A stretch of 64,000 nucleotides of DNA from Roseibium sp. MMSF_3412. GTDB taxonomy: Bacteria > Pseudomonadota > Alphaproteobacteria > Rhizobiales > Stappiaceae. The DNA lies in the NCBI RefSeq assembly GCF_030733265.1, contig NZ_JASHJI010000010.1:124001-188000 (forward strand), read 5' to 3'. This document shows positions 14,126-28,776 of the stretch, in pieces. Below the pieces are notes generated by a model that saw nothing but the letters and a program-made list of their open reading frames with translations, ran no database searches and was not told where the DNA came from. The position numbers were made by a program, and so were the translations under genes. The first letter of the stretch is position 1; every line of letters starts with the position of its first letter.

Positions 14126-14974
14126 TCACCGATGCGTCGGTGTCCACTTGTCCAGCGCTTCAAGCATCTTTTCATGTTCGCCCGCGCGCATGCCGATATT
14201 CGTCTGGCTGTAAGGGAAGTTCCGAGCGGTGACTTCGGCGTGGAACTTGCCGAGTGCGGCAACGCGTTCCTCGTGGATCTGCTTGTGAAGACGCCCGACA
14301 TTGCCGAAGGCATAGGCGTGCTTCGGCGGCGTTTCCTCTTCGCTGGCCTCGCCGCAGATATCGGCAACAAAGGAAAAGACGGCATCGCCCGCCTTTCCCG
14401 ATCCGAGTGAAAAGGTGACGACCGATGTCTTATCGTTGATCACCGCCAGAACTTCTTCCGCGATACACTCCGCTTCCACGGCGAAGACGCCTGCATCTTC
14501 CATGCGCTTGAGCGTTTCGAAGATCTTCATCGCCTCTTCCGCCGTCCGGCCCCAGGCGCGCAAGCCGCCGCAATGATGGCTGAAAGTCGGGATCAGGCCG
14601 ATGTGGCTCTGCACCGGTATCCCGTCGCGCGCCATCCTCTCCATCACATCGAAGGAGCGAAGTGTGTAGTACATGTCCGCGCCGCTTCGCATGGTCTCGT
14701 AGGCGTGGGCAACGATTTCATCGTCCGAGCCGAACTGGGCCCAGCTGGATCCGGCACCGGTGAAATGATACGGCGCGATGCGCCGGACATCCTCCATCTG
14801 GTCGGCTCCGACAACAAAAAGGTCGATGCCTGCCTCGACACAGGCCCTCAATTCATCATTGTTCGCCGGATTTGCCATCGACAAAGTGCGCCCGGAACCC
14901 TTCAGCGCCCGCAGGTCGGCCACGGTGTAGTTGCGCTTCGCCGGGTTCCGGCTGAAGTCGTAGATCCGCTTCAT
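14126..14974 (-). CDS. PanB-like (ketopantoate hydroxymethyltransferase-fold) protein, paralog 1
   Basis: The 282-residue product aligns by eye with PanB: GIPVQSHIGLIPT matches PanB VPVxGHLGLTPQ, RTAEEAMKIFETLKRMEDAGVFAVEAECIAEEV matches the DALALEAAGAxxxVLECVP region with the catalytic-type Glu kept, and VVTFSLGSG matches VIGIGAG. The Mg-binding Asp positions are not conserved: VGDS reads VGAD and the LLADLPF block reads FTGAGSSW. A role in pantothenate synthesis is therefore doubtful. The start at 14974 (MKRIYDFSRNP) is shared with the paralog at 27946. It is third in an operon after PhyH and HD-domain genes, 25 bp behind the latter. Confidence 0.65.
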   Translation of the reverse strand: MKRIYDFSRNPAKRNYTVADLRALKGSGRTLSMANPANNDELRACVEAGIDLFVVGADQMEDVRRIAPYHFTGAGSSWAQFGSDDEIVAHAYETMRSGADMYYTLRSFDVMERMARDGIPVQSHIGLIPTFSHHCGGLRAWGRTAEEAMKIFETLKRMEDAGVFAVEAECIAEEVLAVINDKTSVVTFSLGSGKAGDAVFSFVADICGEASEEETPPKHAYAFGNVGRLHKQIHEERVAALGKFHAEVTARNFPYSQTNIGMRAGEHEKMLEALDKWTPTHR

Positions 14975-14999
14975 GGTTTCAGGTCCTTTTCCCGCCTGC

Positions 15000-15614
15000 T
15001 CAAGCGCGGGCGAGCTGCGCCGGAAGGCCGGTAATCTCATTTTCGCGGATCACGGCAGGGTCGTAGGCCTTGCGGGAGAAAACCTCGCGCACCATCGGCT
15101 CGAAGGTCTCCATCGGTTCGCTCACGTAGTCCGGGTCGAAACTGGACTGGTCCCAGTGTTCGCAAAAGGCCGCGCATGTGTCGAACAGGGGATGGTCACG
15201 ATAGCGGTCGCGCGCATTCCTGTCCCAGCCGTAGTGATGACCGAAATAGAGCGTCTGGAAGATTCCGTGATGCTCGACCGTCCAGGCGACTTCCCATCTG
15301 ACGAAGGGGCGGATCACTTCCGCCGACATCTTGTCGTGGTTTTGAGGTGCGAGCCCGTCGCCGACATCGTGCAGCAGGGCGCCGACGACCCAGTCGATAT
15401 CCGCGCCGTCCCGGAGCGCCCGGGTGCCCGACTGAAGCCCGTGCTCAAGACGGGTGATCTTGTAGCCTTCAAGCGTCGCGTCCCCCGCCCGGCGCAACTC
15501 CTCCAGCACGCGGTCGGCAGTCAGGGCAAGAAACGGTTTTTCCAGTTTTTCCAGAAGCTCGTAGTCTTCCTTCGTGCCGTCTTTCATTGCAGTGAAGCTG
15601 ACGGTCTGGCTCAT
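15000..15614 (-). CDS. HD-domain protein, possible PhnZ/TmpB-type diiron oxygenase
   Basis: This 204-residue HD protein has the ligand pattern H58 (RLEHGLQSG), H82-D83 (LLHDVGD), H93 (NHDKMSAE), H115/H116 (EHHGIFQ) and D155 (EHWDQ). That resembles the six-ligand diiron site of PhnZ and myo-inositol-oxygenase-like HD enzymes. The H58-to-H82 spacing of 24 equals the spacing in PhnZ as I recall it. The gene overlaps the upstream PhyH-type oxygenase gene by 4 bp; the same pairing (2-oxoglutarate oxygenase then HD oxygenase) is used in PhnY/PhnZ organophosphonate cleavage. A plain HD phosphohydrolase remains possible. No phosphonate transporter is present, so the substrate is open. Confidence 0.7.
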   Translation of the reverse strand: MSQTVSFTAMKDGTKEDYELLEKLEKPFLALTADRVLEELRRAGDATLEGYKITRLEHGLQSGTRALRDGADIDWVVGALLHDVGDGLAPQNHDKMSAEVIRPFVRWEVAWTVEHHGIFQTLYFGHHYGWDRNARDRYRDHPLFDTCAAFCEHWDQSSFDPDYVSEPMETFEPMVREVFSRKAYDPAVIRENEITGLPAQLARA

Positions 15615-16477
15615 GAGGCGTCTCCTTTTGCATACAATCCGACGGTCTGCGCGGCGCCTGCCGCGAGCGTCTCGGACTGACCTGCGAGGATACGATCATA
15701 AAGCGCAAGGTCGGCAGGATGAAAGAGCCCGCGCGGACCGGCGATGCAGTCCCAGCCGCCACGGGGTGTTTCACCGCGGACCGGCATGGCCCAGTCCCGG
15801 CCCGGCGCATGATCGCGCACGGCGGGTGTCACATAACGGATGGCCAGCCCGATCCGGCGGTCGGTGCTGTTGTTTGCGCCCGACGCGTGAAAACAGCGCC
15901 CGTGGTGCAGCGACATCTCCCCGGGCCGCAAGGGCCCGTGCACGGCAGCGGCCTCGTCGACACCGGCAATCGCTTGTCCGCGGGACAGAAGATTGTCCTT
16001 GTCAAACGTATCCTCGTGATCGGCGATGCGGCCCTTGTGGCTGCCTGGAATGAAGCGCATGCAGCCTGCCTCGATGGAAACATCTGAGAGCGCCACCCAG
16101 GCCGTCACCTCGTCATCGGTCTCCCCCATGCCCCAATAGGTAATGTCCTGGTGCCAGGAGACCGTTTTCCTGCTCCCCGGTTCCTTGATGAAAAGTTCCA
16201 CCGACCAGGCCAGCAGATCCGGCCCGAGCACGCTTTCGACCGCATCGAGAATGGCGGGTGTGCGGGCCGCATCGGCAAGCATCGGGACAACGACATGTCC
16301 GTTGACCCGGAAGAACTGGGAAAGATCATGCCCCCCGGCACCCGCTGAATGTTCAGCCTCCAGCGCTTCGATCTGCCGGCGCAGATACGCGGCTTCGGTG
16401 GCGGAAAAAACCGGAAGACCGGCCACAAACCCGTTCTGGCGATATTCGCTGAGATGACTTTGTGTGAAATCGAGCAT
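15611..16477 (-). CDS. PhyH-family Fe(II)/2-oxoglutarate-dependent oxygenase
   Basis: The 288-residue product shows the facial triad of the phytanoyl-CoA dioxygenase family: H109 and D111 in SWHQDITYWG, and a distal His near 197 in HHGRCFHASGANNS, followed by RRIGLAIRY with the 2-oxoglutarate-binding Arg. These enzymes hydroxylate small substrates while decarboxylating 2-oxoglutarate. ATG 16477 is chosen because GGAGG lies eight bases upstream on the minus strand. It is the first gene of an operon with HD and PanB-like genes, divergent from a LysR gene. The order suggests hydroxylation followed by oxidative cleavage. Confidence 0.85.
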   Translation of the reverse strand: MLDFTQSHLSEYRQNGFVAGLPVFSATEAAYLRRQIEALEAEHSAGAGGHDLSQFFRVNGHVVVPMLADAARTPAILDAVESVLGPDLLAWSVELFIKEPGSRKTVSWHQDITYWGMGETDDEVTAWVALSDVSIEAGCMRFIPGSHKGRIADHEDTFDKDNLLSRGQAIAGVDEAAAVHGPLRPGEMSLHHGRCFHASGANNSTDRRIGLAIRYVTPAVRDHAPGRDWAMPVRGETPRGGWDCIAGPRGLFHPADLALYDRILAGQSETLAAGAAQTVGLYAKGDAS

Positions 16478-16548
16478 CGTGATCTCCTCCATTTCACCTG
16501 AAGCTACAATTTGCGCCGGCGTTGAAAAGACAGATCTCTTGCCCGCCA

Positions 16549-16567
16549 GGATAAGCTCAGCTTATCC
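16549..16567. promoter_or_regulatory. Perfect LysR-type palindrome between divergent operons
   Basis: GGATAAGCTCAGCTTATCC is a perfect inverted repeat (9-bp arms, 1-bp centre) ending six bases before the LysR ATG. It contains ATAAG-N5-CTTAT, which fits the T-N11-A shape of LysR sites. A half-site GGATAAG recurs at 17519-17525, upstream of the Rieske gene. It probably mediates control of both divergent units. Confidence 0.65.
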
Positions 16568-16573
16568 TTGATC

Positions 16574-17464
16574 ATGACCAAACGCATTCCTTCGCTGAAC
16601 TGGCTGCGGGTGTTCGAGGCCGCTGCCCGTTCGGGCAGTTTCGCAAGGGCCGCCGAAAGCCTTGCCATGTCGCCTCCGGCCGTGAGCCAGCAGATCCGGG
16701 CCCTTGAAGCGCATCTGGGCCGGCCGCTGTTCGAACGCGCGGCCGCAGGCGTCAAACTGACGGAAGCCGGACGAAATCTTTTGTCTGTTGTCGGCGACGC
16801 GCTTGGACGGATGGAAATGGCGGCGGCCGCGCTGGCCGCCCCCGGCGCACCGCCTCTTGTGGTCGGTGTTTCCATGGCGCTCTCCGTGGGTTGGCTCGTG
16901 CCGCGCCTTCACAGGTTCACATCGGCTAATCCGGACGTTTCACTGGAGCTTTATTCCCTTCTCGGACGTCCGGAAACGCCACCTCGAAATGCCACGCTCT
17001 GGATTGCCTTCGGCCCGCCGCCGCCAGGAACAGACGGGGAAACACTTTTTGGCGAACGGCTCCAACCGGTCGCCCATCCCGAGATTGCCGGAAGTATCGG
17101 CACCCTGGACGATGCCCTCGCACACCGGCTGATCGAAGTTGCCGATCACCGGCGCAACTGGGCACAGATCTTTGGCAGCGATGTCCTTCCGGCCAATGCG
17201 CAGGTGACTTATGTCGACACCACGCTGAGCGCACTCGCACTCGCCGGTGCACGCGGCGGCATCGCATTGGCACGCCCGCCGGCAAGTGACGATCTGGTGG
17301 ACCGGTACGGCCTTGTGCCGTGCCTGCCCGGCTTCGATGTGCGCGGGATCGAGGAATATCACATCCTTCACCTGGCCGGTGCGCCGCTGGATTCCCAGGC
17401 GAGGACCTTTCTGTCCTGGATCGGCGCTGAAGCCGCGGAAACAAGACGGAAACACGATCTGTAG
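16574..17464 (+). CDS. LysR-family transcriptional regulator (GcvA-like)
   Basis: The N-terminal winged HTH is KRIPSLNWLRVFEAAARSGSFARAAESLAMSPPAVSQQIRALEAHLGRPLFERAAAGVKLTEAGR, the GcvA-subgroup signature. A substrate-binding domain follows, ending in HLAGAPLDSQARTFLSWIGAEA. The start is ATG 16574; the frame also opens at TTG 16568 inside the palindrome flank. The gene sits between the PhyH/HD/PanB-like operon and the Rieske/sulfatase operon. The adjacent palindrome and the repeated GGATAAG half-site make it the likely regulator of both. Confidence 0.9.
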   Translation: MTKRIPSLNWLRVFEAAARSGSFARAAESLAMSPPAVSQQIRALEAHLGRPLFERAAAGVKLTEAGRNLLSVVGDALGRMEMAAAALAAPGAPPLVVGVSMALSVGWLVPRLHRFTSANPDVSLELYSLLGRPETPPRNATLWIAFGPPPPGTDGETLFGERLQPVAHPEIAGSIGTLDDALAHRLIEVADHRRNWAQIFGSDVLPANAQVTYVDTTLSALALAGARGGIALARPPASDDLVDRYGLVPCLPGFDVRGIEEYHILHLAGAPLDSQARTFLSWIGAEAAETRRKHDL

Positions 17465-17600
17465 AACCGCCCCGGCGCGGACCATACCCATCGGGCGTCG
17501 CAGCCGACTGGCGAAAAAGGATAAGTTTACGGCTAGAAATATCTATTGCCGACTGTCCGTTGAAGGCAAGCTTGAAGCAAGAGTACGGGAGGGAAACGGC

Positions 17601-18722
17601 GTGTCCGACACAACAGCAATCGCATACGGCTATGACCGCGATCCGTCGCGCTCCAGCTCGCTGCAAGCAGCAGCTTATGTGGAACCGGACTGGTACAGAT
17701 CCGACTTGAACGCGATCATTGCCCGGACATGGCAATGGGTGTGCCATGTCGAGAAGACGCGCGAACCGGGATCTTATGTAACCGTCGACATCGCGGGCCA
17801 TCCGATCGCGGTGGTGCGCGCAAAGGATGGCGTTTTGCGCGCCTTTTATAATGTCTGCAAACACCGGGCCCACGAACTCCTGTCCGGCGAAGGCACCACC
17901 ACGCGCATCATGTGTCCCTACCACGCATGGGTTTACCGCCTGGACGGTCAGCTCGCCCGGGCGCCGCACACGGAGTCGCTTCAGGACTTCAACACCTCGG
18001 ACATCTGCCTTGATGAAGTCCGGGTCGAGGAATTCTGCGGCTTCGTCTTTGTTAACCTGGACCGTCAGGCGGCATCCCTTTCAGAACAGTCCGGCGATCT
18101 GGAAACCGAGATCAGGCACTGGGCGCCCGATATCGATCAACTGACCTTTGGCCATCGCCTCACCTACGACATCAAGTCGAACTGGAAGAACGTCGTCGAC
18201 AATTTCCTGGAGTGTTACCACTGCCCGACGGCGCACAAGGATTTCTGCGATCTGGTCGATATGGACACCTACAAGGTGACGACACACGGCATCTATTCCA
18301 GCCACATGGCGGACGCGGGAAATGCCGCAAACAGCGCCTATGATGTTTCCAATGCCAGCGTCAGAACCCACGCCGTCTGGTGGCTCTGGCCGACCACATG
18401 CCTGATGCGATATCCGGGCAGGTCCAGCATGATCGTGCTCAACATAATCCCCATCGGGCCGGACCGCACGCTGGAAACCTATGACTTCTTCCTGGAAACG
18501 CCCGAGCCGAATGACATGGAACGTGACGCGATCCGCTATCTCGATGAAGTTCTGCAGGTGGAAGACATCGCGCTTGTCGAAAGTGTCCAGCGCGGCATGA
18601 ACACACCGGCCTTCACGCAGGGCCGCATCGTTCACGATCCGGACGGGTCGGGCAAATCGGAACACGCGGTCCACCATTTCCACGGCCTTGTGCTGGACGC
18701 TTATGCAAGGGGCGCCGCGTGA
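17601..18722 (+). CDS. Rieske non-heme iron oxygenase, alpha subunit (GbcA/choline-monooxygenase type)
   Basis: The GTG start at 17601 is supported by GGGAGG seven bases upstream. The Rieske [2Fe-2S] ligands are C86-x-H88 (NVCKHRAHE) and C105-x2-H108 (MCPYHAW). The mononuclear iron motif is VVDNFLECYHCPTAH with H207 and H212. This layout, with the ECYHCP segment, is close to glycine-betaine monooxygenase GbcA and related quaternary-ammonium oxygenases that cut or hydroxylate N-methyl compounds. No reductase gene (GbcB type) is adjacent, so electrons must come from an unlinked reductase. Its stop overlaps the sulfatase start by 4 bp. Confidence 0.88.
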   Translation: MSDTTAIAYGYDRDPSRSSSLQAAAYVEPDWYRSDLNAIIARTWQWVCHVEKTREPGSYVTVDIAGHPIAVVRAKDGVLRAFYNVCKHRAHELLSGEGTTTRIMCPYHAWVYRLDGQLARAPHTESLQDFNTSDICLDEVRVEEFCGFVFVNLDRQAASLSEQSGDLETEIRHWAPDIDQLTFGHRLTYDIKSNWKNVVDNFLECYHCPTAHKDFCDLVDMDTYKVTTHGIYSSHMADAGNAANSAYDVSNASVRTHAVWWLWPTTCLMRYPGRSSMIVLNIIPIGPDRTLETYDFFLETPEPNDMERDAIRYLDEVLQVEDIALVESVQRGMNTPAFTQGRIVHDPDGSGKSEHAVHHFHGLVLDAYARGAA

Positions 18723-20254
18723 CGCCGCCCAACATCGTCGTGGTAATGGCGGACCAGCTGGCGCCGCACTTTACCGGCGCCTACGGGCATCGGCTGGCAA
18801 AAACGCCGCATCTTGATGCACTCGCCGCGCGCGGCATGCGCTTTGACGCGGCCTATTGCAATTCACCGCTTTGCGCACCCTCGCGCTTTGCCTTCATGTC
18901 CGGCCAGCTCATCAGCCGTATCGCCGCCTATGACAACGCTTCGGAGTTCAAGGCCTCCATCCCGACCTTCGCGCACTATCTGAAGGCACTCGGCTACCGG
19001 ACCTGCCTGTCCGGCAAGATGCATTTTGTCGGACCGGACCAGATGCATGGTTTTCAGGACCGTGTAACCACCGACATCTACCCGTCCGATTTTGCCTGGA
19101 CGCCCGACTGGGAAGCCGCGGATGAGCGGATCGACAAGTGGTATCACAACATGCAGACCGTCAAGGAAAGCGGTGTTGCAAAGGCCACCTTCCAGATCGA
19201 CTATGACGACGAGGTCGGTTTTGCGGCCCGCCGCTGGCTGTTCGACCGCGCGCGCGACAGGTCAGCGGGCGCAAACGCGCCTTTCGCGCTGGTGGCGAGC
19301 TTCATACATCCCCACGATCCCTATGTCGCCCGTCCGGAATGGTGGAACCTCTACGAGGATACGGATATTCCGCTTCCCGCCGATATCCCGCCCCTGGAAG
19401 ATCAGGATCCTTTCTCACGCAGGCTCATGGACGGGATCGAAGCGTCTTATGTTCCCTTGAGTGACGAGGACGTCCGCAGGGCGCGCCACGCCTATTTTGC
19501 AAATGTGAGCTACTTCGACAGCAAGATCGGTGAGATCGTCAGCACCCTCGAAGAGATCGACGAACTGGACAACACGGTGGTGATCGTGACGGCGGATCAC
19601 GGCGACATGCTCGGCGAGCGCGGTCTCTGGTACAAGATGAATTTCTTTGAGCATTCCGCCCGGGTACCCCTGGTCATGGCCGGACCCGGCATTGCCAGAG
19701 GCCATGCCTCAAACGCGTGTTCGCTCGTCGACCTGCTGCCGACCTTCCTGGAGATTGCGGGCGGCCGGGAGGACATGCTGGGAGAACCGATCGATGGCCG
19801 CAGCCTGTTGCCTCTTGCGCGGGGTGAACACGATCCCGTCGACGAGGCGATCGGCGAATACTGCGCCGAAATGACGGCCCACCCGGTGCTCATGATCCGG
19901 CGCGGTTCCATGAAATACATTCACTGCGACAGCGATCCGCCGCAGCTCTACGATCTGGAACGTGACCCCGGCGAAAGAACAAACCTGGCAAGCGAACCGC
20001 AATTTCGCGACATCGCTGCCCGTTTTGCCGAAGACGTTGCCCGGCGCTGGGACGGAGCGGAGCTGCGCCGCAAGGTCATGGCGACCCAGAAGTCCCGTCG
20101 CGCACTGCACGCCGCCATGGAAGCAGGCGCGGGCGAAACGTGGGACTACAATCCGCCTTCCGACGCCAGTCAGCAATATGTCCGAAACCACATGGACTGG
20201 ACCGTTGCCGCCAATCGCTACCGCTATCCGCCGTTGAAGGAACACGAAGAATGA
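18719..20254 (+). CDS. Choline-sulfatase-type sulfatase
   Basis: This type I sulfatase of 511 residues has the formylglycine signature C52-A-P-S-R in NSPLCAPSRFAFMSG, the metal site MADQL at residues 10-14, and VTADHGDMLGERGLW in the C-terminal metal region. The end (WDYNPPSDASQQYVRNHMDWT) matches the specific C-terminal extension of BetC choline-sulfatases. It would hydrolyse an O-sulfate ester; choline-O-sulfate or a related zwitterion is the best guess. A formylglycine-generating enzyme is needed from elsewhere. The GTG start overlaps the Rieske stop (GTGA) and its own stop overlaps the next SDR (ATGA), so it is deep inside an operon. Confidence 0.85.
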   Translation: MTPPNIVVVMADQLAPHFTGAYGHRLAKTPHLDALAARGMRFDAAYCNSPLCAPSRFAFMSGQLISRIAAYDNASEFKASIPTFAHYLKALGYRTCLSGKMHFVGPDQMHGFQDRVTTDIYPSDFAWTPDWEAADERIDKWYHNMQTVKESGVAKATFQIDYDDEVGFAARRWLFDRARDRSAGANAPFALVASFIHPHDPYVARPEWWNLYEDTDIPLPADIPPLEDQDPFSRRLMDGIEASYVPLSDEDVRRARHAYFANVSYFDSKIGEIVSTLEEIDELDNTVVIVTADHGDMLGERGLWYKMNFFEHSARVPLVMAGPGIARGHASNACSLVDLLPTFLEIAGGREDMLGEPIDGRSLLPLARGEHDPVDEAIGEYCAEMTAHPVLMIRRGSMKYIHCDSDPPQLYDLERDPGERTNLASEPQFRDIAARFAEDVARRWDGAELRRKVMATQKSRRALHAAMEAGAGETWDYNPPSDASQQYVRNHMDWTVAANRYRYPPLKEHEE

Positions 20255-21045
20255 TGCTTGAAGGCAAGAACGCCCTCGTGACGGGCGCAAGGGGCGGTAT
20301 CGGCCGAGCCATCGTCGCCCGTTTCCTGAAGGAAGGGGCAAAGGTCTATGCGGCCGACCTCAGCCCCGAAGGCTCACTGCACACGCCGCAAGACGACGGC
20401 AGCCGGTTTCTCAAACTGGATGTCACCAGCGAACCCGACGCAGTTGCTGCCATGAAGCAAATCGGAGACGAGGACGGCAAGCTCGATATCCTTGTGAACG
20501 CCGCCGGTATCGAGATCGAAAAGACGATTGAAGAGACGTCGCTTGAGGAGTGGAACCGGTCCTTTGCGGTCAACGTGACCGGCACCTTCCTGACATCGAA
20601 ATATGCGCTTCCGCTTCTGCGCCAGGCAGCGCAATCGGGATCGAGCGCCAGCTTGATCAATTTCGGCTCATATGACGGCTTCATCGCCGACCCCGGCCTT
20701 GCCGCCTATTGCGCCACCAAGGGCGCCGTCCATGCGCTCACCCGCGCGATGGCCTGCGATCACGGGCCGGAAGGCATCCGCGTCAACGCGATCTGCCCCG
20801 GCTACATCGACACGCCCATGCTGCAGAGCTTCTTCAACGGAGACGGCTCGGGCGGCGATGGCGGCAACATCGAGACCTTGCAGCAGGCCGTCCGGGACGT
20901 ACACCCGATGCGCACCTACGGAACGCCTGCGGACATCGCCAACCTGGTCAACTGGCTGGCCTCGGACGAGGCGCGGTATGCCTCCGGGCAGCTCTGGGTT
21001 CTCGATGGCGGTCTGTCCGCCCAAGTTCAGCAGATGAGGCTCTGA
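20251..21045 (+). CDS. SDR-family oxidoreductase (first of operon pair)
   Basis: The start is ATG 20251, overlapping the sulfatase stop by 4 bp; a second ATG follows directly. The 264-residue classical SDR has TGARGGIG at residues 10-17, NAAG (LVNAAGIEIEK), Ser in NFGSYDG, and YCATK (AAYCATKGAVHALTRAMA). The C-terminal ASDEARYASGQLWVLDGGLS is typical of FabG-like SDRs. It may oxidise a hydroxyl of the desulfated substrate or reduce a keto intermediate. A second SDR of related type lies three genes downstream. Confidence 0.87.
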   Translation: MMLEGKNALVTGARGGIGRAIVARFLKEGAKVYAADLSPEGSLHTPQDDGSRFLKLDVTSEPDAVAAMKQIGDEDGKLDILVNAAGIEIEKTIEETSLEEWNRSFAVNVTGTFLTSKYALPLLRQAAQSGSSASLINFGSYDGFIADPGLAAYCATKGAVHALTRAMACDHGPEGIRVNAICPGYIDTPMLQSFFNGDGSGGDGGNIETLQQAVRDVHPMRTYGTPADIANLVNWLASDEARYASGQLWVLDGGLSAQVQQMRL

Positions 21046-21977
21046 TGCCCAGATCCGTTATCATTACCTGTGCACCGACAGGCGGCATTCATACCCCGTC
21101 CATGTCGCCTCACCTGCCTGTCACACCGGCAGAAATCGCAACCGCGAGCATCGAGGCGGCCGAGGCCGGCGCCTCCATCATCCACCTGCATGCACGCGAT
21201 CCCGAGACCGGCAAGCCCGATCCAAGACCGGAAACGTTCAACCAGTTTCTTCCGGTGATCAAACAGTCGACCGACGCGGTCATCAATGTCTCGACCGGCG
21301 GCGGTCTTGGCATGACGATGGATGAACGTCTTCTGGCGGCAACGACGGCCAGCCCGGAGATGGCGTCCCTCAACATGGGATCGATGAATTTCGGCATTTT
21401 CCCGATGCTGCAGAAATACACCGAGTTCCAGCATGACTGGGAACGCCCGTTTCTGGAAATGACCGAGGACTTCATTTTCCCCAACACGTTCCGCACGATC
21501 CGCTACGCGATCGAGAAGCTGGGTGGTGACCACGGAACCAAGTTCGAGTTCGAGTGCTATGACCTCGGCCACCTCTACAACGTCAAATGGTTTGTCGATC
21601 AGGGACTGATCAGGCCGCCATTCTTCATTCAGCTGGTCTTCGGCATCCTCGGGGGAATGGGTGCCGATGCGGACAACCTGTTGCATCTGCACAAGAAAGC
21701 GGACGAACTCTTCGGACCGGAAAACTATGAATGGTCGGTGCTTGCCGCCGGGCGGCACCAGATGCCCTTCGCCACGCAGAGCGCGATGCTCGGCGGAAAT
21801 TTGAGGGTTGGCCTGGAGGACAGCCTCTTCATCGGCAAGGGTGAACTTGCAACCTCCAACGCACAGCAGGTCTCGCGCATTCGCGACATTTTGGAAAATC
21901 TTGGCCTGACCCTTGCGACACCGGCGGAAGCCCGTGAAAGGCTGGCGCTCAAGGGTGGCGACAAGGTCGGCTTTTAG
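21045..21977 (+). CDS. Beta-keto acid cleavage enzyme (BKACE family, CdhC-like)
   Basis: The product is 310 residues, the usual BKACE length. Features include the metal-binding HLHARDPETGKPDPRPE block near residues 46-62, NVSTGGGLGMT, SLNMGSMNFG, and the C-terminal GGNLRVGLEDSLFIGKGELATSNAQQV. BKACEs condense acetyl-CoA with a beta-keto acid and split it into acetoacetate plus a new CoA ester; in carnitine breakdown CdhC does this to 3-dehydrocarnitine. The start overlaps the preceding stop (TGATG). With the carnitine-dehydrogenase-like gene at the operon end it argues for a 3-hydroxy-acid zwitterion as an intermediate. Confidence 0.9.
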   Translation: MPRSVIITCAPTGGIHTPSMSPHLPVTPAEIATASIEAAEAGASIIHLHARDPETGKPDPRPETFNQFLPVIKQSTDAVINVSTGGGLGMTMDERLLAATTASPEMASLNMGSMNFGIFPMLQKYTEFQHDWERPFLEMTEDFIFPNTFRTIRYAIEKLGGDHGTKFEFECYDLGHLYNVKWFVDQGLIRPPFFIQLVFGILGGMGADADNLLHLHKKADELFGPENYEWSVLAAGRHQMPFATQSAMLGGNLRVGLEDSLFIGKGELATSNAQQVSRIRDILENLGLTLATPAEARERLALKGGDKVGF

Positions 21978-21989
21978 GGAGGATCGGAT

Positions 21990-23408
21990 ATGCAGACGCG
22001 CATGTTGATAAATGGCGAGCTGGTTAAAGGAACCGGCGAAGGGCTTCCTGTCCTGAACCCCGCCAGTGAAACGACCATCGACGTTGTGAAGGAAGCGGGC
22101 GAGGACCAGATCGACGCCGCCGTCAACGGCGCCGCCGAGGCCTTCGAGACGTTTTCGGCGACCTCTCCTTCAGAGCGGTCAGCGCTGCTTCTGCAGATCG
22201 CCGACGTGATTGAACAGAACAGCCAGGAGTTGGCGGAACTGGAAAGCCTCGACGTCGGCAAGCCCTGGCCGTCCGCTCATGACGACGAGATGCCTCTGAC
22301 AATCGACGTCTTCCGGTTTTTTGCAGGCGCGGCCCGGACAATGACAGGCTCGGCGGCGGGCGAATACATCGCCGGGCACACCTCCATGATCCGGCGCGAT
22401 CCGGTCGGCCCGGTTGCCGCGATTGCCCCCTGGAACTATCCGCTGATGATGGCCAGCTGGAAGCTGGCAGCCCCGATCGCCGCCGGCTGTTCCGTGGTTC
22501 TGAAGCCGTCCGAACTCACACCGCTATCAACCCTGAAGCTCGGCGAATTGCTGCAGGACGTGGTCCCAAAAGGCGTCGTGAACATCGTGCACGGGCGCGG
22601 ACCGACCGTCGGCAGCACGCTGATGAACAGCCCCCGGATGGAAGCAATCAGCGTCACCGGATCTCCGGCAACGGGCATGGCCGCCATGCGGGCGGCCTCC
22701 AGTCAGATACGGCACGTCCACCTGGAACTCGGCGGCAAGGCCCCGGTGATCGTTTTCGACGACGCGGATCTGGACGCGGTCGCCGAGACGATCCGCTATG
22801 GCAGTTATTTCAACGCCGGTCAGGACTGTGCCCAGCCCTGCCGCGTATTGGTCGCCGACAAGGCTTATGACCGCCTTGTCGCCGCCATCGCCGATCAGGT
22901 CGGCCAGATCAGGACCGGTGCACCCAAGGATGAGGGAACCGAGATGGGTCCGCTCGTGTCGGCGGCACAGAGAGACAGGGTCGCCGGTTTCGTTGAACGC
23001 GCCGGATCAAGCGCCGAGATCGTAATGGGTGGCAACGAGGGCAGCGGGCCGGGTTACTTTTTCGACCCGACGGTCGTTGCCAATGTCGACAATGCGTCGG
23101 AAATCGCCTGTGACGAGGTCTTTGGTCCGGTCGTGACGGTGTCGCGGTTTACCGATGCCGAGGCAGCCTTGAAGATCGCCAACGCGGGATCTTATGGTCT
23201 GGCGTCTTCCGTCTGGACCCGCGATGTTGGCCTTGCCATGCGCATGACTTCCAGATTGCGCTACGGCTTCACCTGGGTGAACACCCACGGCATGGCGACG
23301 CCGGAAATGCCCTGGGCCGCGATGAAAGGCTCAGGCACTGGCTGCGACATGTCCGTCTATGCCCTCGACGCCTATACGTCGATCCGCCACGTCATGGTCG
23401 CGCACTGA
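21990..23408 (+). CDS. Aldehyde dehydrogenase (betaine/aminobutyraldehyde type)
   Basis: The 472-residue NAD(P)-dependent ALDH has the catalytic Glu in [12 protein letters not shown] and the catalytic Cys in [14 protein letters not shown]. The GQDC motif is typical of gamma-aminobutyraldehyde, 4-trimethylaminobutyraldehyde and betaine aldehyde dehydrogenases. The [19 protein letters not shown] block completes the family signature. It lies 12 bp after the BKACE gene with an AGGGAGGA ribosome site, and its stop overlaps the next SDR start by one base. It probably oxidises a quaternary-amine aldehyde released by the Rieske oxygenase or an upstream step. Confidence 0.9.
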
Positions 23409-24142
23409 TGCGTCTGGCCGGAAAGAAAGCCCTTGTCACAGGTGGCCGGCAGGGCATCGGCAAGGGCATTGTCGACGCCTTTCTTGAAGAAGGCGCACAT
23501 GTCACCGCCTGCGGCCGGGGTGAAAAGCCCGCCGGATATCCGGCCGATTGGCTGACACTGGATGTTGCAGACCCGGATGCCGTCGCAGCCGCGGCAACTT
23601 CGCTGAGCGCACTCGACATTCTGGTCAACAATGCCGGTGTTCAGGTTGAAAAGACCGTTGTCGACAGCACGGATGCGGACTGGGACCACGTGATGAACAC
23701 CAACGCACGCGGTGTGTTCAACACCTGCCGCGCCTTCATTCCCCTCATGCGTGATGGTGGATCGGTCATCAATATCGGTTCGATATCGGGCAATGTCGCC
23801 GACCCGTCGATGGCGCTCTACAACGCGTCCAAGGCCTTCGTCCATGGGCTGACGCGCTCCATCGCGGTCGATCACGGCCCGAAGATCCGCTGCAACGCGA
23901 TCTGCCCGGGCTGGATCGAGACAGGAATGCTCGACGCAGGCTTCGACCTCGCAGGCGATCCGGCAGGAGCGAAGACGGATGCACTTCAGCGGCACCCAGT
24001 GCGGCGTTTTGGCCAGCCCCGCGACATTGCCGCCATGGCGGTCTGGCTCGCCTCGAACGAGGCCGGCTTCGCCACGGGTCAACTTTTCACCCTTGACGGT
24101 GGCATGACCGCCGCCTCGCCGCTCAATCCGGGACTGTTCTGA
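23408..24142 (+). CDS. SDR-family oxidoreductase (second of operon pair)
   Basis: This 244-residue FabG-like SDR has TGGRQGIGKG at residues 10-19, NNAG (LVNNAGVQVEK), Ser in NIGSISGNVAD, and YNASK in ALYNASKAFVHGLTRSIA. The C-terminal ASNEAGFATGQLFTLDGGMT closes the family pattern. It shares unusual phrases with the first operon SDR (VEKT after NNAG, Ala-Asp-Pro after the Ser loop, HxLTRx(M/I)A, CDHG/VDHGP), so the two may be duplicates with different substrates or stereochemistry. One-base overlaps link it to both neighbours. Confidence 0.87.
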   Translation: MRLAGKKALVTGGRQGIGKGIVDAFLEEGAHVTACGRGEKPAGYPADWLTLDVADPDAVAAAATSLSALDILVNNAGVQVEKTVVDSTDADWDHVMNTNARGVFNTCRAFIPLMRDGGSVINIGSISGNVADPSMALYNASKAFVHGLTRSIAVDHGPKIRCNAICPGWIETGMLDAGFDLAGDPAGAKTDALQRHPVRRFGQPRDIAAMAVWLASNEAGFATGQLFTLDGGMTAASPLNPGLF

Positions 24143-25086
24143 TGAGCCAGATTTCAAAAATTTCGGTCCTGGGTGGCGGTGTCATCGGCGCGAGCTGGAC
24201 CGCCTTGTTCCTCGCCTCCGGACGCGATGTCACCGTCTATGACACGGCTCCGGATGCAGAGAGCAAGGTGAAAAGCTACATCGAAACCGCATGGCCGTCG
24301 CTCGAGGCGCTCGGCCTCGCGGGAAGCACAGCGCCGGGAGAGGTTTCGTTTGCAAAAACCGCTGCGGACGCGTCAGCAGACGCGGACTTCGTTCAGGAGA
24401 ATGTTCCCGAACGGTTGCCGATCAAACATGCGATCTACAGCGAAATCGAACCGGTGCTGTCAAAAACCGCGATTGTGTCGAGTTCCACATCCGGCCTGAC
24501 ACTGGAAGCCTTGCAGGAAGGATGGCAGAACCCGGCGAACTTCGTTCTCGGTCACCCGTTCAATCCGCCGCATCTCATCCCGCTTGTCGAATTGACGGCC
24601 AACGAGAAGACCGACCCTGCGGCACTGGATGCGACGGAGGCCTTCTACGAGACAATCGGCAAGGTCACGATCCGCATCAGGAAAGGCATGCCGGGTCATG
24701 TCGCCAATCGCCTGCAGGCCGCCGTCTGGCGCGAGGCTGTTTTCATGGCGGTCGAAGGCGTTGCCAGCGTGGAGGATATCGACAAGGCGATGTGGGCTGG
24801 ACCGGGTCTGCGATGGGCCGCGATGGGACCGACAACGCTGTTTCATCTCGGGGCAGGCGATGGCGGCCTTCAGGCCTTCTGCGATCATTTCAGAGACACC
24901 TTCAACGGCTGGTGGGATGGCCTCGGCGACCCGCGCCTGGACGATACCGTGATCGAAAAGCTGGTTGCCGGCATGAACGAGCAGGCGCGTGGACGAAGCC
25001 CGCAGGAGCTGTCCGAGGAGCGGGACAGGATGCTGGTCGCACTGCAGGCCGCGACCCGGGCCCTTCGGAAGCAGTCCGCGGATTAA
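24142..25086 (+). CDS. 3-hydroxyacyl-CoA dehydrogenase-family protein, carnitine 3-dehydrogenase-like
   Basis: The 314-residue product begins with the Rossmann motif VLGGGVIGASWTALF. It carries SSTSGL, VLGHPFNPPHLIPLVEL, the GMPGHVANRLQAAVWREA helix and a C-terminal LRWAAMGPTTLFHL. This resembles L-carnitine 3-dehydrogenase (CdhA/LcdH) more than fatty-acid FadB-type enzymes, including the VPERLPIKHAIYSEIEP segment. It would oxidise a 3-hydroxyl to the beta-keto acid used by the BKACE enzyme two to three genes earlier. It is the last gene of the operon. The exact substrate is uncertain because no thioesterase (CdhB) is present. Confidence 0.82.
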   Translation: MSQISKISVLGGGVIGASWTALFLASGRDVTVYDTAPDAESKVKSYIETAWPSLEALGLAGSTAPGEVSFAKTAADASADADFVQENVPERLPIKHAIYSEIEPVLSKTAIVSSSTSGLTLEALQEGWQNPANFVLGHPFNPPHLIPLVELTANEKTDPAALDATEAFYETIGKVTIRIRKGMPGHVANRLQAAVWREAVFMAVEGVASVEDIDKAMWAGPGLRWAAMGPTTLFHLGAGDGGLQAFCDHFRDTFNGWWDGLGDPRLDDTVIEKLVAGMNEQARGRSPQELSEERDRMLVALQAATRALRKQSAD

Positions 25087-25152: not shown

Positions 25153-25455
25153 CTAAATGAATTGCGGATAGGCAGCCGCCACGATGATCCCGGCAACCAT
25201 CGCCCAGATCACACTCCGCGAACCTGCGGCAACGACAATCGCGCTGCCGGTTGCAACAATTGTCTTCAAGTCCGCGGCAACAAGTGACGACGCAACCAGG
25301 GCGGCGATGACGGAAACCGACATTCCCTGAAGAAACTTCTCGACGCGCGGTGTTGGCGTCACCCAGGCCATGAGTACGGCGCCGGACAGCCGCGTCCCCA
25401 GCGCAACCAGTCCAAGAAGCGCGACGGCCAGGATGTAGGACCAATCACTCAGCAT
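25153..25455 (-). CDS. azlD: AzlD-family branched-chain amino-acid exporter subunit
   Basis: This is a small 100-residue membrane protein with four hydrophobic helices (YILAVALLGLVALGTRL, MSVSVIAALVASSLVAADL, IVATGSAIVVAAGS, VIWAMVAGIIVAAAY). Length and position fit AzlD, the small partner of AzlC. The start ATG at 25455 overlaps the end of azlC by 11 bp, so translation is coupled. Together they are expected to export branched-chain or similar amino acids. They are convergent with the carnitine-like operon. Confidence 0.85.
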   Translation of the reverse strand: MLSDWSYILAVALLGLVALGTRLSGAVLMAWVTPTPRVEKFLQGMSVSVIAALVASSLVAADLKTIVATGSAIVVAAGSRSVIWAMVAGIIVAAAYPQFI

Positions 25456-26149
25456 GACGCAGGGCGGCGACGCCGCCGCCAAGGAGTGCAGCCAGAATGA
25501 TGTTCCAGCCATTCGGGAGATAGGGCAGCGTAATCGCCGAGGTGACGACTGCGACGATAACAGGGAGCAAGAGGGATGGCGTTGAGCGCACCATCCCAAA
25601 GGCCGTTGCCGCAAAGAAACAGAGCATCACGACGCCGAACCCGAGGGCCTCCGTGTTGCCGAGCAGGTTTCCCCCGAACGCCCCGGCAGCCGTGCTGCCG
25701 ACCCATGTGATCCACAGCATCAGACCACCCCCCAAAAGCGGACCCAGATCTGTTTCACCGCGTTGCAGGAGCATTTGCGTATCAGCAAAGTTTGCGTCGC
25801 TGAGAAACATCAGCACCACAAACCGCTTGCCTGCGGGAAGCCGGTTGATCCATTGGGCGAGAGCCGCTCCCATGATCAGATGCCGGCCACTCAGCGCAAG
25901 TGCAACAAGGCCGAGGGAAAAGAAGGCGACCGGCTCCTGGAGAAAATCCAGCGCGGCAAACTGCGCCGTCGCAGTGAACACAAAGGCACTCATCGCTGTG
26001 GCTTGTATCGGTCCGATGCCGCCTTCTGTTGCCGCAATGCCAAAGGCGATGCCGAACGGAACGACAAACAGGCAAATCGGCAGCAGCCGCGTCATTCCGC
26101 GCAAGACGCCCGCACGCGAGATGGTCACGATTTCAGAGTTTCTAACCAT
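25445..26149 (-). CDS. azlC: AzlC-family branched-chain amino-acid exporter subunit
   Basis: The membrane protein has the AzlC landmarks: FGIAFGIAATEGGIGPIQATAMSAFVFTATAQFAAL near the N-terminus, LSGRHLIMGAALAQWINRLP, VLMFLSDANFADTQM, and several later helices. The first ATG is 26149 (234 residues); a TTG at 26185 would lengthen it. A TCTAACC/GGTTAGA dyad overlaps this start codon, so the real start could be slightly downstream. It is divergent from a CGNR-type regulator, which probably controls it. Confidence 0.88.
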   Translation of the reverse strand: MVRNSEIVTISRAGVLRGMTRLLPICLFVVPFGIAFGIAATEGGIGPIQATAMSAFVFTATAQFAALDFLQEPVAFFSLGLVALALSGRHLIMGAALAQWINRLPAGKRFVVLMFLSDANFADTQMLLQRGETDLGPLLGGGLMLWITWVGSTAAGAFGGNLLGNTEALGFGVVMLCFFAATAFGMVRSTPSLLLPVIVAVVTSAITLPYLPNGWNIILAALLGGGVAALRHAE

Positions 26150-26202
26150 TATAAAGGTTAGACAGATTTCGGACTTGTCTGTCAACCGGTGCAGGGGTTA
26201 GA
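26141..26202. promoter_or_regulatory. TCTAACC/GGTTAGA operator cluster between azlC and the CGNR regulator
   Basis: TCTAACC (26141-26147) and GGTTAGA (26156-26162) form a perfect 7-bp-arm dyad with an 8-bp spacer. A further GGTTAGA lies at 26196-26202, next to the regulator start. A second dyad, GACAGA (26161-26166) with TCTGTC (26178-26183), overlaps it. The 60-bp divergent region is thus almost wholly repeat-structured. Confidence 0.55.
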
Positions 26203-26209
26203 AATTCAC

Positions 26210-26743
26210 ATGAGCTATTCCCAAGGACATCCCGTTCGGCCTGTCGGCGGACGCCTGGCGCTTGACTTTGTCAACACCGCCGATTGGACGGCAAATGATC
26301 ATGTGGCGCACGAAAAGCTGAAAAGCCCGGATGATTTGGACGTTTGGCTGCGCACGCTCGGGATAGACGCGTGTTGTGCCGGTACGCTGGAAGAGCTCAA
26401 GGGTCTCAGAAGCGATCTCCGGGCTGCATTGCTTGAATCAAGGGCTTCCGGCAGCCTGAACGCGGTCAAAGAGCTGGATTTTGGCACGGAACAAGGTTCA
26501 CTGCCTTTGCTGGAAGGTCTTTTGGCGGCCTCCGCAATCTCGATTCTGGCCGACCCCAGGGAGCGCGGCCGCCTCAAGATGTGCCCCGGTGACAACTGTG
26601 GCTGGCTGTTCATTGATGAAACAAAGAACAGCAGGCGGACCTGGTGCAGCATGGAGAGCTGTGGCAACAGGGCAAAGGCCGCAAGGCACTATCTGCGCAA
26701 CAGGAAAGCCGCCGCTGCAAGTAACCGATCCTTGGAAGAATAG
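26210..26743 (+). CDS. CGNR zinc-finger transcriptional regulator with ABATE domain
   Basis: The 177-residue product has the N-terminal GGRLALDFVNTADW signature of the ABATE domain and a C-terminal treble-clef finger CPGDNCGWLFIDETKNSRRTWCSMESCGNRAKAARHYLRNRK with the diagnostic CGNR. Such proteins are thought to be stress- or metabolite-linked transcription regulators. The start is ATG 26210; a GTG at 26189 would add seven residues. It is divergent from azlCD across a 60-bp region rich in GGTTAGA motifs, the likely operator. Confidence 0.9.
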   Translation: MSYSQGHPVRPVGGRLALDFVNTADWTANDHVAHEKLKSPDDLDVWLRTLGIDACCAGTLEELKGLRSDLRAALLESRASGSLNAVKELDFGTEQGSLPLLEGLLAASAISILADPRERGRLKMCPGDNCGWLFIDETKNSRRTWCSMESCGNRAKAARHYLRNRKAAAASNRSLEE

Positions 26744-26774: not shown

Positions 26775-27815
26775 TCACTGTTCCGTCTCGTGAGGACCCG
26801 GCCTGGGACTGTACATCGGCCAGGCACGGAATTCGAATGGCACACGGCCTTCGATACGATCGCTCCCTGGCGACAACCCGAACCGCTTCTTGTAGGACCG
26901 GCTGAAATGTACCTGGCTGTTGAAGCCGGACGCTGCGGCAATTTCACTGAGCTTCATTTCCGTCTGCGTCACGAGCCCGCGCGCCCGGTCGAGCCGGATA
27001 TCGCGGTAGTATTCAACCGGCGACCGGCGCACATAATGTCCGAAAAGACGGCTGAGCTGGCGTTGCGACACACCCAGGCGCGCACAGATGTCGGGGATGG
27101 ACAGCGGGTCCTCGAGATTTTGCTCCATCAGATCGATCGCACGCCTGACAGCGCCCGGCGTCGCGTACCCTGTCGGTTCGGTCCCCTTGGGATTTTGCGA
27201 ATGTCCTTCGGTCCGAATCTGATGATGGAAAAGGTACCTGGACGCGGCGTTTGCAACACTGACGCCCGAATAGTTTCGCAGGAAATGCAACGCAAGGTCG
27301 GTCGAGGCCGAGCCGCCGCAACAACTGAAGAACCGGTCGTCGATGACGTAGAGATCCTCGGAGACAGTCGTGTCCGGGGCAACTTCGATCAGCGCGTCGA
27401 TGTGTTCGTAGTGCACGGTGGCTGTCCTGTCCGCAAGCAGACCTGCCTTCGCCAGCACGAACGCACCGGTGTCGAGCCCGCCGACGACCGCTCCCCCCCG
27501 CGCCCATTTCTTCAGCGGTCCGAGAACCCGGTCCGTGTAGTGCCGCTCCGGGGTCCAGCTTGTGCTGACAAGGACCACGTCCGGCTTCACCGCATCCGCA
27601 TCGGCAATGGCCTTGGTATCGACGCTCAGGCCGCTGCTTGAGGAGACCGGTCCGCCACGATCGGAGACAAAGGTCCAGGAAAACAGGGACGTTCCGGTCA
27701 GGTAGTTGGCAACGCGAAACGGATCGATGAACGATGTCGTCGCCGACACGTTGAAGTGCGGCGTAACGAGAACAACGATCCGGACGGTGTCGGTCTGATC
27801 TATGGGCATGGCCAA
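26775..27815 (-). CDS. GlxA/AraC-family transcriptional regulator (CdhR/GbdR-like)
   Basis: The 346-residue product joins an N-terminal DJ-1/PfpI-type class I amidotransferase-like domain (RIVVLVTPHFNVSATTSFIDPFRVANYL, GGLDTGAFVLAKAGLL) to a C-terminal double HTH (MEQNLEDPLSIPDICARLGVSQRQLSRLF, MKLSEIAAASGFNSQVHFSRSYKKRFG). This architecture includes CdhR and GbdR, activators of carnitine and glycine-betaine catabolism. The FFSCCGGSASTDLALHFL segment is typical of that branch. It lies about 1.7 kb from the carnitine-like operon and is divergent from a PanB-like gene. A quaternary-amine ligand is plausible but inferred. Confidence 0.87.
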   Translation of the reverse strand: MAMPIDQTDTVRIVVLVTPHFNVSATTSFIDPFRVANYLTGTSLFSWTFVSDRGGPVSSSSGLSVDTKAIADADAVKPDVVLVSTSWTPERHYTDRVLGPLKKWARGGAVVGGLDTGAFVLAKAGLLADRTATVHYEHIDALIEVAPDTTVSEDLYVIDDRFFSCCGGSASTDLALHFLRNYSGVSVANAASRYLFHHQIRTEGHSQNPKGTEPTGYATPGAVRRAIDLMEQNLEDPLSIPDICARLGVSQRQLSRLFGHYVRRSPVEYYRDIRLDRARGLVTQTEMKLSEIAAASGFNSQVHFSRSYKKRFGLSPGSDRIEGRVPFEFRAWPMYSPRPGPHETEQ

Positions 27816-27945: not shown

Positions 27946-28776
27946 ATGAAACGCATATACGACTGGGACGCCAGATTTTCGCTTCGCAACCACACAGCCG
28001 CAGACATTCTCGCGCTCAAGGGGAAGCGGAAGCTGACACAGACGACGGCAAACTCCGTTGAAGAGGCTGCGGCGGCTGCGGATGCCGGCATCGACCTGAT
28101 CATGGGAAATGCCCAGAATACCAAGGCAGCCCGCGAAGGCGCGCCGCATCTCTTTTTCACCGCCGCCATCGCGCTGCCCGATTTCCCGACCGGGACCGAT
28201 GTCCTGAACGCCGCGTTCAAGGCCATGAAGGACGGCGCCGACTCGGTCTACACCGCGCGCGGCCCTCATATCGTGGAATTGTTGGCGAAAGAGCAGATCC
28301 CTGTGATGTGCCATCTCGGGCTGGTGCCGCGCAGATCCGGCTGGCATGGCGGGCTGCGCGCGATCGGGCGGACGGCAGACGAGGCCGTGGAGCTTTGGAA
28401 AGCGTTCAGACGGATGGAAGACGCGGGCGCATTCTCCGTCGAGGCGGAAGTCATTCCGGCCCCCGTGATGGAAGAAATAAGCCGCCGCACGTCGCTGGTC
28501 ACCATGTCGCTTGGATCGGGAAGCGGCGGCGACGTCATTTACCTGTTTCAAAACGATATTTGCGGGGAAGATACGACCCGTCCAAGACATGCGAGGGCAT
28601 TCGGTAACATTCACGCGCTTGAGCAGCAGATTCGTGCGGAGCGCCGGTCCGCCCTCAGCGCCTTCAAGGAAGCAGTCCACTCCGGCAGTTTCCCCGCTCA
28701 AGGGGAAACCGCAGAAATCGACGATCAGGCGCTCACCGAATTCATTGACCGCATCGCTCGAGAAGACGGGAAGTAG
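27946..28776 (+). CDS. PanB-like protein, paralog 2
   Basis: This 276-residue paralog of the gene at 14126-14974 shares MKRIYDW/F, IPVMCHLGLVPRRS, LRAIGRTADEAVELWKAFRRMEDAGAFSVEAEVIPAPVMEEI, TSLVTMSLGSGSGGDVI, NDICGE and HARAFGNI. As in paralog 1 the PanB GDS motif is absent (DLIMGNAQN), so canonical pantothenate synthesis is unlikely. It is divergent from a CdhR/GbdR-like regulator, which may control it. Both copies sit next to quaternary-amine-type catabolic genes, so they may act on a product of those routes. The reaction is unknown. Confidence 0.65.
   Translation: MKRIYDWDARFSLRNHTAADILALKGKRKLTQTTANSVEEAAAAADAGIDLIMGNAQNTKAAREGAPHLFFTAAIALPDFPTGTDVLNAAFKAMKDGADSVYTARGPHIVELLAKEQIPVMCHLGLVPRRSGWHGGLRAIGRTADEAVELWKAFRRMEDAGAFSVEAEVIPAPVMEEISRRTSLVTMSLGSGSGGDVIYLFQNDICGEDTTRPRHARAFGNIHALEQQIRAERRSALSAFKEAVHSGSFPAQGETAEIDDQALTEFIDRIAREDGK

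Follow-up and report, generated by a model that had tools for sequence, protein, structure and literature searches.

The window analysed here is a stretch of 64,000 nucleotides from the 6.2 Mb genome of Roseibium sp. MMSF_3412 (contig NZ_JASHJI010000010.1, positions 124,001 to 188,000), and our subject is a group of seven rightward genes at 17601-25086 that form one conserved catabolic operon. The genes encode, in order, a Rieske oxygenase, a sulfatase, a first short-chain dehydrogenase (SDR1), a beta-keto acid cleavage enzyme (BKACE), an aldehyde dehydrogenase (ALDH), a second short-chain dehydrogenase (SDR2) and a CdhA-like dehydrogenase. The Rieske and sulfatase genes overlap by 4 bp, as do those for the sulfatase and SDR1; the SDR1/BKACE, ALDH/SDR2 and SDR2/CdhA-like junctions each overlap by 1 bp, and the BKACE and ALDH genes are separated by a gap of 12 bp. 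The re-read coordinates bear out the gene positions, the five overlaps of 1-4 bp and the single 12-bp gap given in a preliminary description of this DNA that was made from its letters alone. The features of the operon, with the element upstream of it and its likely regulator, are as follows.

17509-17525, plus strand: recurrent operon-upstream element TGGCGAAAAAGGATAAG, a match to TGGCGAAAAA
17601-18722, plus strand: Rieske oxygenase alpha subunit, putative group Va (CntA-like); Pfam Rieske and Ring_hydroxyl_A
18719-20254, plus strand: sulfatase of the choline-sulfatase family, a distinct paralogue; TIGR03417, 703 bits
20251-21045, plus strand: SDR1; Pfam adh_short_C2, kept beside BKACE in relatives
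21045-21977, plus strand: BKACE, not of the CdhC type; Pfam BKACE PF05853, NF053538
21990-23408, plus strand: ALDH of the aminobutyraldehyde type; PRK13473
23408-24142, plus strand: SDR2; Pfam adh_short_C2
24142-25086, plus strand: CdhA/lambda-crystallin-like beta-hydroxy acid dehydrogenase; 3HCDH_N and 3HCDH
26775-27815, minus strand: GlxA/GbdR-type AraC activator, likely operon regulator; best match GbdR NF052371

The gene set is conserved together well beyond the window. A scan of named genomes seeded with the BKACE, which by design displays only clusters that contain this enzyme, returned 431 relatives, and 80 of them were retained as loci in which gene presence was called with fixed identity thresholds. 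The Rieske oxygenase, SDR1, SDR2 and the CdhA-like dehydrogenase were all present in 46 of these 80 loci, so that the preliminary description's own ground for doubt, that no relative might keep the set together, falls away. Where at least 7 kb was available on both sides of the BKACE (n = 41), 32 loci held all four genes, and nine lacked the full core (L079, L083, L092, L096, L102, L103, L105, L126 and L136). Among the 46 full-core loci the GlxA-type regulator was found in 42, the ALDH in 32 and the sulfatase in 31; the sulfatase and the ALDH are optional members of the operon. The only similarity clusters present in at least 20 loci were those of the unit's eight gene types (the two SDRs fall into one cluster) and one cluster of ABC ATPases, and no other common flanking gene was found in the locus maps and one family scan.

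Searches in other samples gave a similar picture. Among 87 genomes of the family, the BKACE was present at 89% identity or more in nine, and an orthologue of the CdhA-like gene (at least 70%) in those same nine. Among 72,556 plasmid records, ten carried an orthologue of the Rieske gene (at least 74.9%), below which matches dropped to 34.6-37.8%, with CntA/YeaW among them; in the corresponding search with the CdhA-like protein, for which the best 40 of 955 records were listed, the ten best of the matches listed (at least 57.4%, next 50.0%) were the same ten records. Eight of these ten plasmids also carried the BKACE at 70% or more, and in Rhizobium sp. CB3171 the Rieske gene lies about 13 kb from the CdhA-like gene on the opposite strand. 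The Rieske orthologue is rare across the class, occurring in three members, the window's genome included, of an even sample of 385 Alphaproteobacteria.

Taxa with the unit include Ruegeria, Roseovarius, Roseibium, Shimia and others, together with plasmids of Shinella, Rhizobium, Mesorhizobium and Pseudomonas, and also Paracoccus. The source in marine algae that had been suggested for the substrate is thus too narrow. The sulfatase is absent from the full-core copies of Shinella, Mesorhizobium, Rhizobium, Pseudomonas and Paracoccus, but it is also missing in marine loci such as that of Nioella (L134), 15 of the 46 full-core loci in all, and a split between land and sea in its presence is an apparent tendency. 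Genes flanking the operon in relatives include choline/betaine-type ABC genes, recognised by annotation in L040, L041 and L043 and by similarity of an open reading frame (ORF) in L192. In L042 there is a choline-binding protein whose score of 440 bits exceeds the cut-off of 379, and with it a CdhB-like thioesterase; ferredoxin-reductase-like genes follow the operon in L040, L042 and L043.

The Rieske oxygenase has carnitine monooxygenase as its best solved relative (6y8j, 254 bits). Its top NCBIfam name is GbcA (NF058607), but the 152.8 bits scored fall far short of the cut-off, 670. According to the available part of PMC7948474, group Va enzymes, which act on carnitine, choline and benzalkonium, have Tyr or Phe at CntA position 203, whereas group Vb enzymes (GbcA, Stc2) have Asn. 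Group Va membership was judged by Tyr or Phe at this position together with the bridging Glu205 (CntA, CmoA, OxyBAC); the window protein has Phe202 and Glu204 at the equivalent positions and keeps the Cys pair. The residue equivalent to CntA 203 is Phe in 63 of 64 relatives and was not read in one, in counts (here and for the sulfatase) that include up to five genomes twice under two locus identifiers. The GbcA type proposed in the preliminary description was rejected on both grounds, score and Phe at position 203. Tyr225 and Tyr295 of CntA are retained; among the carnitine-pocket residues compared (Phe258, Asn270, Tyr295, Tyr315 and Phe319), only Tyr295 is kept. Asn270, Tyr315 and Phe319 are replaced by Met, by Leu, Ile or Val, and by Leu in all 64 rows (Met, Leu and Leu in the window), and at position 258 one alignment gives Thr and another His. 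The pocket is therefore constant in this group but is not that of CntA, and the Rieske enzyme is, as judged from these residues, a CntA-like group Va oxygenase with a different pocket.

Two further Rieske-type genes of the same genome were observed. One, on contig C5 (L171:1501-2544), has Tyr at CntA position 203 and 36% identity to the window enzyme, and is a second group Va candidate; the other, at 30241-31419 of the window, adjoins a presumed TetR-like gene and has no NCBIfam match at 1e-40.

The sulfatase passes the cut-off of the choline-sulfatase equivalog TIGR03417 (433), as do two other genes of the genome. Its identity to BetC of Sinorhizobium meliloti is 47.3%, against 71.5% for another gene of the genome, and on this comparison a plain betC duplicate was discarded. 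Glu386 of S. meliloti BetC, which reads the quaternary ammonium group (available part of PMC5870055), is present in the window sulfatase and in all 56 relatives compared; the window protein also retains those catalytic residues that were checked. The tunnel and latch residues Leu499, Asp500 and Leu502 of BetC are replaced by Trp, Thr and Ala in the window; Leu499 occurs in none of the 56 relatives (Trp in 54), Asp500 in six and Leu502 in none. Position 499 is the telling one, because the genome's own BetC, with Leu, Asn and Val at 499, 500 and 502, keeps Leu499 but neither Asp500 nor Leu502.

The BKACE scores 349.8 bits on PF05853 (gathering score 24.8) and 502 bits on NF053538, 3,5-dioxohexanoate:acetyl-CoA acetone transferase (cut-off 430), although this match leaves its substrate unfixed because a 60% paralogue and a lone BKACE pass as well. 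The genome has a canonical CdhA elsewhere (732 bits), and the BKACE of another type beside it, CdhC by position, reaches 210 bits on NF053538 and has 34.8% local identity to the window BKACE. Nine CdhA-adjacent BKACE rows occupy their own side of a branch, with a Shimodaira-Hasegawa-like approximate likelihood ratio test (SH-aLRT) support of 100, in a rapidly built tree in which long branches are flagged at that split. On the tree and the contrast of 502 with 210 bits the CdhC type was rejected. The label of carnitine dehydrogenase fared no better, since the CdhA-like protein, although carnitine 3-dehydrogenase is its best NCBIfam match, scores below both curated cut-offs for that enzyme (258.4 against 592 for NF005716 and 250.6 against 414 for NF005471), so that a canonical enzyme of this kind was rejected. 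The ALDH reaches 666 bits on PRK13473, the aminobutyraldehyde type (cut-off 615).

The regulator at 26775-27815 has GbdR (NF052371) as its top NCBIfam match, at 236.5 bits and below the cut-off of 480, and is probably the conserved GbdR/GlxA-type activator of the operon; it lies outside the region that the preliminary description addressed. Upstream of the operon, matches to TGGCGAAAAA with at most one mismatch are present in 27 of 59 regions against one of 59 simple letter shuffles, the word having been picked from the very 59 regions in which it was counted. We infer that this regulator may bind the TGGCGAAAAA element.

Taken together, the CntA-nearest Rieske oxygenase, Glu386 of the sulfatase, the GbdR-like regulator and the choline/betaine-type neighbours in L040-L043 and L192 support a predicted link of the enzyme set to quaternary-onium, and in particular quaternary ammonium, chemistry. 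One catabolic operon with a quaternary ammonium link thus survives from the preliminary description, while its GbcA-type, CdhC-type and carnitine-dehydrogenase labels do not. Since the genome has a BetC at 71.5% and a canonical CdhA with another type of BKACE elsewhere, the operon does not appear to be the choline or carnitine pathway. The reading that we prefer, held tentatively and at somewhat under even chances, is that the operon would break down a hydroxylated quaternary-onium compound other than choline, glycine betaine or carnitine, probably with a chain longer than that of carnitine; its onium group would be trimethylammonium or possibly dimethylsulfonium.

On this reading the sulfatase, where present, would free an alcohol from its O-sulfate, and an SDR together with the ALDH would convert the alcohol to a beta-hydroxy acid, which the CdhA-like enzyme would oxidise to a beta-keto acid. 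BKACE would then use acetyl-CoA to cleave the latter, with acetoacetate and an acyl-CoA as products. Either at the start or at the end of the route, the group Va Rieske oxygenase would break the C-N bond adjoining the onium group; this would release trimethylamine and give an aldehyde for the second SDR or the ALDH. As to the order of Rieske and BKACE action, the ALDH subfamily and the thioesterase of L042 favour a cationic beta-keto acid as the BKACE substrate, while the BKACE subfamily favours early loss of the amine.

Several points weigh against a hydroxylated quaternary-onium substrate processed by the operon as one unit. The confirmed substrates of the related BKACE15 are uncharged in the available part of PMC11961710; they fit poorly with a cationic beta-keto acid and therefore favour early loss of the amine. 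Plasmids of Alisedimentitalea and of strain M382 keep the Rieske, sulfatase, SDR, CdhA-like and GlxA genes, but this BKACE is missing from their clusters. Besides the window's genome, the two Rieske-bearing members of the alphaproteobacterial sample are L194 and L193: L194 has the full core with neither a sulfatase nor a GlxA-type match in the stretch taken, and in L193 the Rieske, SDR1 and SDR2 genes are followed by a leftward ORF that runs to the contig end, with neither the CdhA-like gene nor BKACE on the contig. A lone BKACE of the same clade stands with none of the other seven genes in 14 of the 80 loci, six of them with full flanks. There is no Rieske reductase among the genes annotated in the window cluster, and the chemistry of every proposed step is assigned by homology.

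Some observations on these loci are recorded for themselves. The neighbours of the lone BKACEs (TctA/PrpF, enolase-like and thiamine pyrophosphate (TPP) enzymes) pointed to no common substrate; in L103 (7325-10004) a TPP enzyme with an N-terminal Rieske domain stands before an isochorismatase-like gene, which in turn overlaps a lone same-clade BKACE, and L105 has the same order. Accessory genes lie between the Rieske and BKACE genes in a few loci each, comprising genes that we take to encode isochorismatase-like and small HEAT-like and CutA-like proteins, as well as a glyoxalase and an M48 gene. Labrenzia sp. DG1229 (L051:7045-8651) has two extra ORFs between the sulfatase and SDR1, possibly an insertion element. 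Distant relatives of the CdhA-like gene (L184, L185, L187-L189, L195-L198 and L239-L241) have mixed neighbours.

The best-surviving alternative, which we consider somewhat unlikely, lets the Rieske enzyme remove trimethylamine first, after which the ALDH, the SDRs, the CdhA-like enzyme and BKACE would process an uncharged or anionic hydroxy-acid skeleton. This would suit a BKACE that belongs with NF053538 (502 against 430) and not with CdhC, and CntA of Acinetobacter baumannii acts first according to the available part of PMC11353897; but the ALDH is of the aminobutyraldehyde type, and the CdhB-like thioesterase of L042 would be expected for a betainyl-CoA-like product.

A further proposal, made in the preliminary description and compatible with the quaternary-onium reading, is that the operon acts in one pathway with a block of three leftward genes and a LysR gene on its other side. 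The features concerned are as follows.

14126-14974, minus strand: PanB-superfamily enzyme, accessory block; PF02548, 97 bits
15000-15614, minus strand: HD-domain protein, accessory block; PF01966
15611-16492, minus strand: PhyH-type Fe/2-oxoglutarate oxygenase, accessory block; PF05721, 118.6 bits
16549-16567, no strand: palindrome between PhyH and LysR
16574-17464, plus strand: LysR regulator of the leftward accessory block

The PanB-HD-PhyH genes and LysR make up an accessory block that is lineage-specific and has a regulator of its own. PhyH was found in four of the 87 family genomes (the window's, G070, G065 and G067), each time beside the operon, and so was the window-type HD gene (at least 93%), whereas HD homologues at 46-77% occur in 29 further family genomes (33 of 87 in total). 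The PanB-like gene is in the same four genomes and, at 81%, in G064. The HD homologues in 33 of 87 genomes had been considered as showing that the block is independent of the operon, but only four are of the window type and all four stand beside it; independence is not shown, because PhyH and the window-type HD gene adjoin the operon in four of four cases. That both occur there, when the operon itself is in only nine of the 87 genomes, speaks for a joint pathway, as does an HD relative that stands with choline genes on a Pseudomonas plasmid (L245). Against it, the four genomes with the block do not count as independent, since they belong to one genus. Of the nine family genomes with the operon, five are without the block beside it and lack PhyH altogether, and among loci L039-L139 the LysR orthologue (at least 60%) and the block occur only in L045, L046 and L047/L060. 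In L046 and L047 a leftward ORF of 443 amino acids separates LysR from the Rieske gene, and in G064 the PanB-like gene is on a different contig from the operon. A Phaeobacter plasmid outside the ten Rieske-orthologue records carries LysR with relatives of HD (57%) and PanB (54%) but not the operon's Rieske gene. On balance we regard a common pathway as unlikely.

The palindrome, GGATAAGCT-C-AGCTTATCC, is perfect and was matched as well by none of 100 shuffles; it is recognisable, though not always perfect, in L045, L046 and L047, the three relatives with the block. The preliminary description was right on the presence of the palindrome and the three leftward genes, but its sharing with the seven-gene operon does not hold. 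It lies about 1 kb from the start of the Rieske gene, between PhyH and LysR, and differs from the operon's own TGGCGAAAAA element; a single palindrome serving both transcription units was rejected on these two grounds, and the difference also speaks against a joint pathway.

Within the block, the HD protein does not reach the cut-offs of the PhnZ/TmpB oxygenases (34.3 against 214.6 bits for Phn-HD and 21.8 against 300 for TmpB), nor does the PanB-like protein reach that of the panB equivalog (70 bits, cut-off 207). The partner oxygenase of HD varies, being PhyH in the window, while in Phaeobacter (L244) an annotated sterol-desaturase-family protein and PanB-like stand with HD; the HD relative of L245 is accompanied by a TmpA-like TauD enzyme (347 bits, cut-off 400) beside the choline genes. 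The HD homologues of L242 and L243, both after a MaoC-type gene, may be paralogues.

Other genes lie near the operon in the window. Between it and the GlxA-type regulator, at 25153-26743, stand genes that we presume from their sequence to be an AzlC/AzlD-like pair and a CGNR-type gene; the AzlC-like and CGNR-type genes were found again only in L045 among loci L039-L139. Just past the regulator, at 27946-28776, another gene of the PanB superfamily, related to that at 14126-14974, scores 88.8 bits (cut-off 272).

A sulfonium substrate of the gonyol type is a less probable alternative. Here 5-dimethylsulfonio-3-hydroxypentanoate, or a sulfated relative, would be converted by the CdhA-like enzyme and BKACE to the CoA ester of dimethylsulfoniopropionate (DMSP), followed by DMSP breakdown. 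We know of no sulfated gonyol, although no search was aimed at it alone, and this counts against the route. A DMSP-lyase-family cupin lies inside the cluster of L088 (3735-4370; PF16867, 52.7 bits against a cut-off of 27) and has DMSP lyases as its closest solved relatives. A homologue from the same similarity cluster stands between the Rieske and sulfatase genes of L066 (6978-7628), overlapping each by 4 bp. The cupin is found in these two loci only, however, and the operon also occurs in land bacteria; in the available part of PMC9695272 gonyol is reported from a marine bacterium, but also as an inhibitor of DMSP lyase. Finally, that the operon is a mere redundant copy of the bet and cdh functions for choline-O-sulfate or carnitine is very improbable: the sulfatase does exceed the choline-sulfatase cut-off and keeps Glu386 and the catalytic residues checked, but other parts of the genome hold a true BetC and a canonical CdhA that has a BKACE of its own, the 56 sulfatase relatives include none with Leu499 or Leu502 and six with Asp500 (Trp at 499 in 54), and the Rieske pocket differs from that of CntA at 270, 315 and 319 in 64 of 64 rows.

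The operon can be compared with five known systems. It shares with the carnitine pathway CdhA-CdhC-CdhB a beta-hydroxy acid dehydrogenase and a BKACE in a quaternary ammonium setting, as well as what we take to be the same GbdR/CdhR class of regulator. It differs in its CdhA-like enzyme (258 against 592 bits), in its BKACE subfamily, in having no thioesterase in the window operon and in adding a Rieske oxygenase, SDRs, an ALDH and a sulfatase. With CntA/CntB of A. baumannii it has in common an aldehyde dehydrogenase and a CntA-like Rieske enzyme that carries the aromatic residue of group Va, but identity to CntA/YeaW plasmid records is 35-38%, pocket positions 270, 315 and 319 are changed, the ALDH is of the aminobutyraldehyde type and the D-malate route is not seen. 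The bet operon resembles it in sulfatase family, in the catalytic residues checked and in the quaternary-ammonium glutamate; the window sulfatase, however, has 47% identity to S. meliloti BetC, against 75% for the BetC of Ruegeria pomeroyi (available part of PMC4744692), its tunnel-lining tail residues are changed, and the operon has no BetA or BetI. An Arctic SAR11 island (ABC transporter, CHDH, ALDH, CDH, BBOX and BKACE) follows a shared logic of transporter, aldehyde dehydrogenase, carnitine-dehydrogenase-like enzyme and BKACE, but it has a choline dehydrogenase and BBOX, and the available part of PMC12421898 names no Rieske enzyme or sulfatase. Lastly, the oxidative deoxyribonate pathway likewise uses an SDR and a BKACE, giving acetoacetate, but from a sugar acid, and no Rieske enzyme or sulfatase is named in the available part of PMC6365646. 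Parts of the operon resemble each of these pathways, and none fits it whole. The preliminary description knew of no described pathway with this set, and we likewise found no description of it in the open-access literature searched, with subscription journals mostly outside.

Within the quaternary-onium reading, a more specific and doubtful proposal is that the sulfatase has shifted from choline-O-sulfate to the O-sulfate of a hydroxylated onium osmolyte of greater length, unreported in seawater, for which the operon would be a dedicated route returning sulfate, trimethylamine (or dimethylsulfide) and carbon, while relatives without the sulfatase, land bacteria included, would use the unsulfated compound. 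If the quaternary-onium reading is true, methylated nitrogen (or sulfonium sulfur) and sulfate esters would be processed through the operon by a route that is hidden by the current gene names choline-sulfatase, 3-hydroxyacyl-CoA dehydrogenase and 3-keto-5-aminohexanoate cleavage protein. As the unit is spread over Ruegeria, Roseovarius, Roseibium, Shimia and plasmids, one would expect its substrate to be a genuine metabolite, perhaps one not yet measured, and the gene set would provide a direct handle for finding it.

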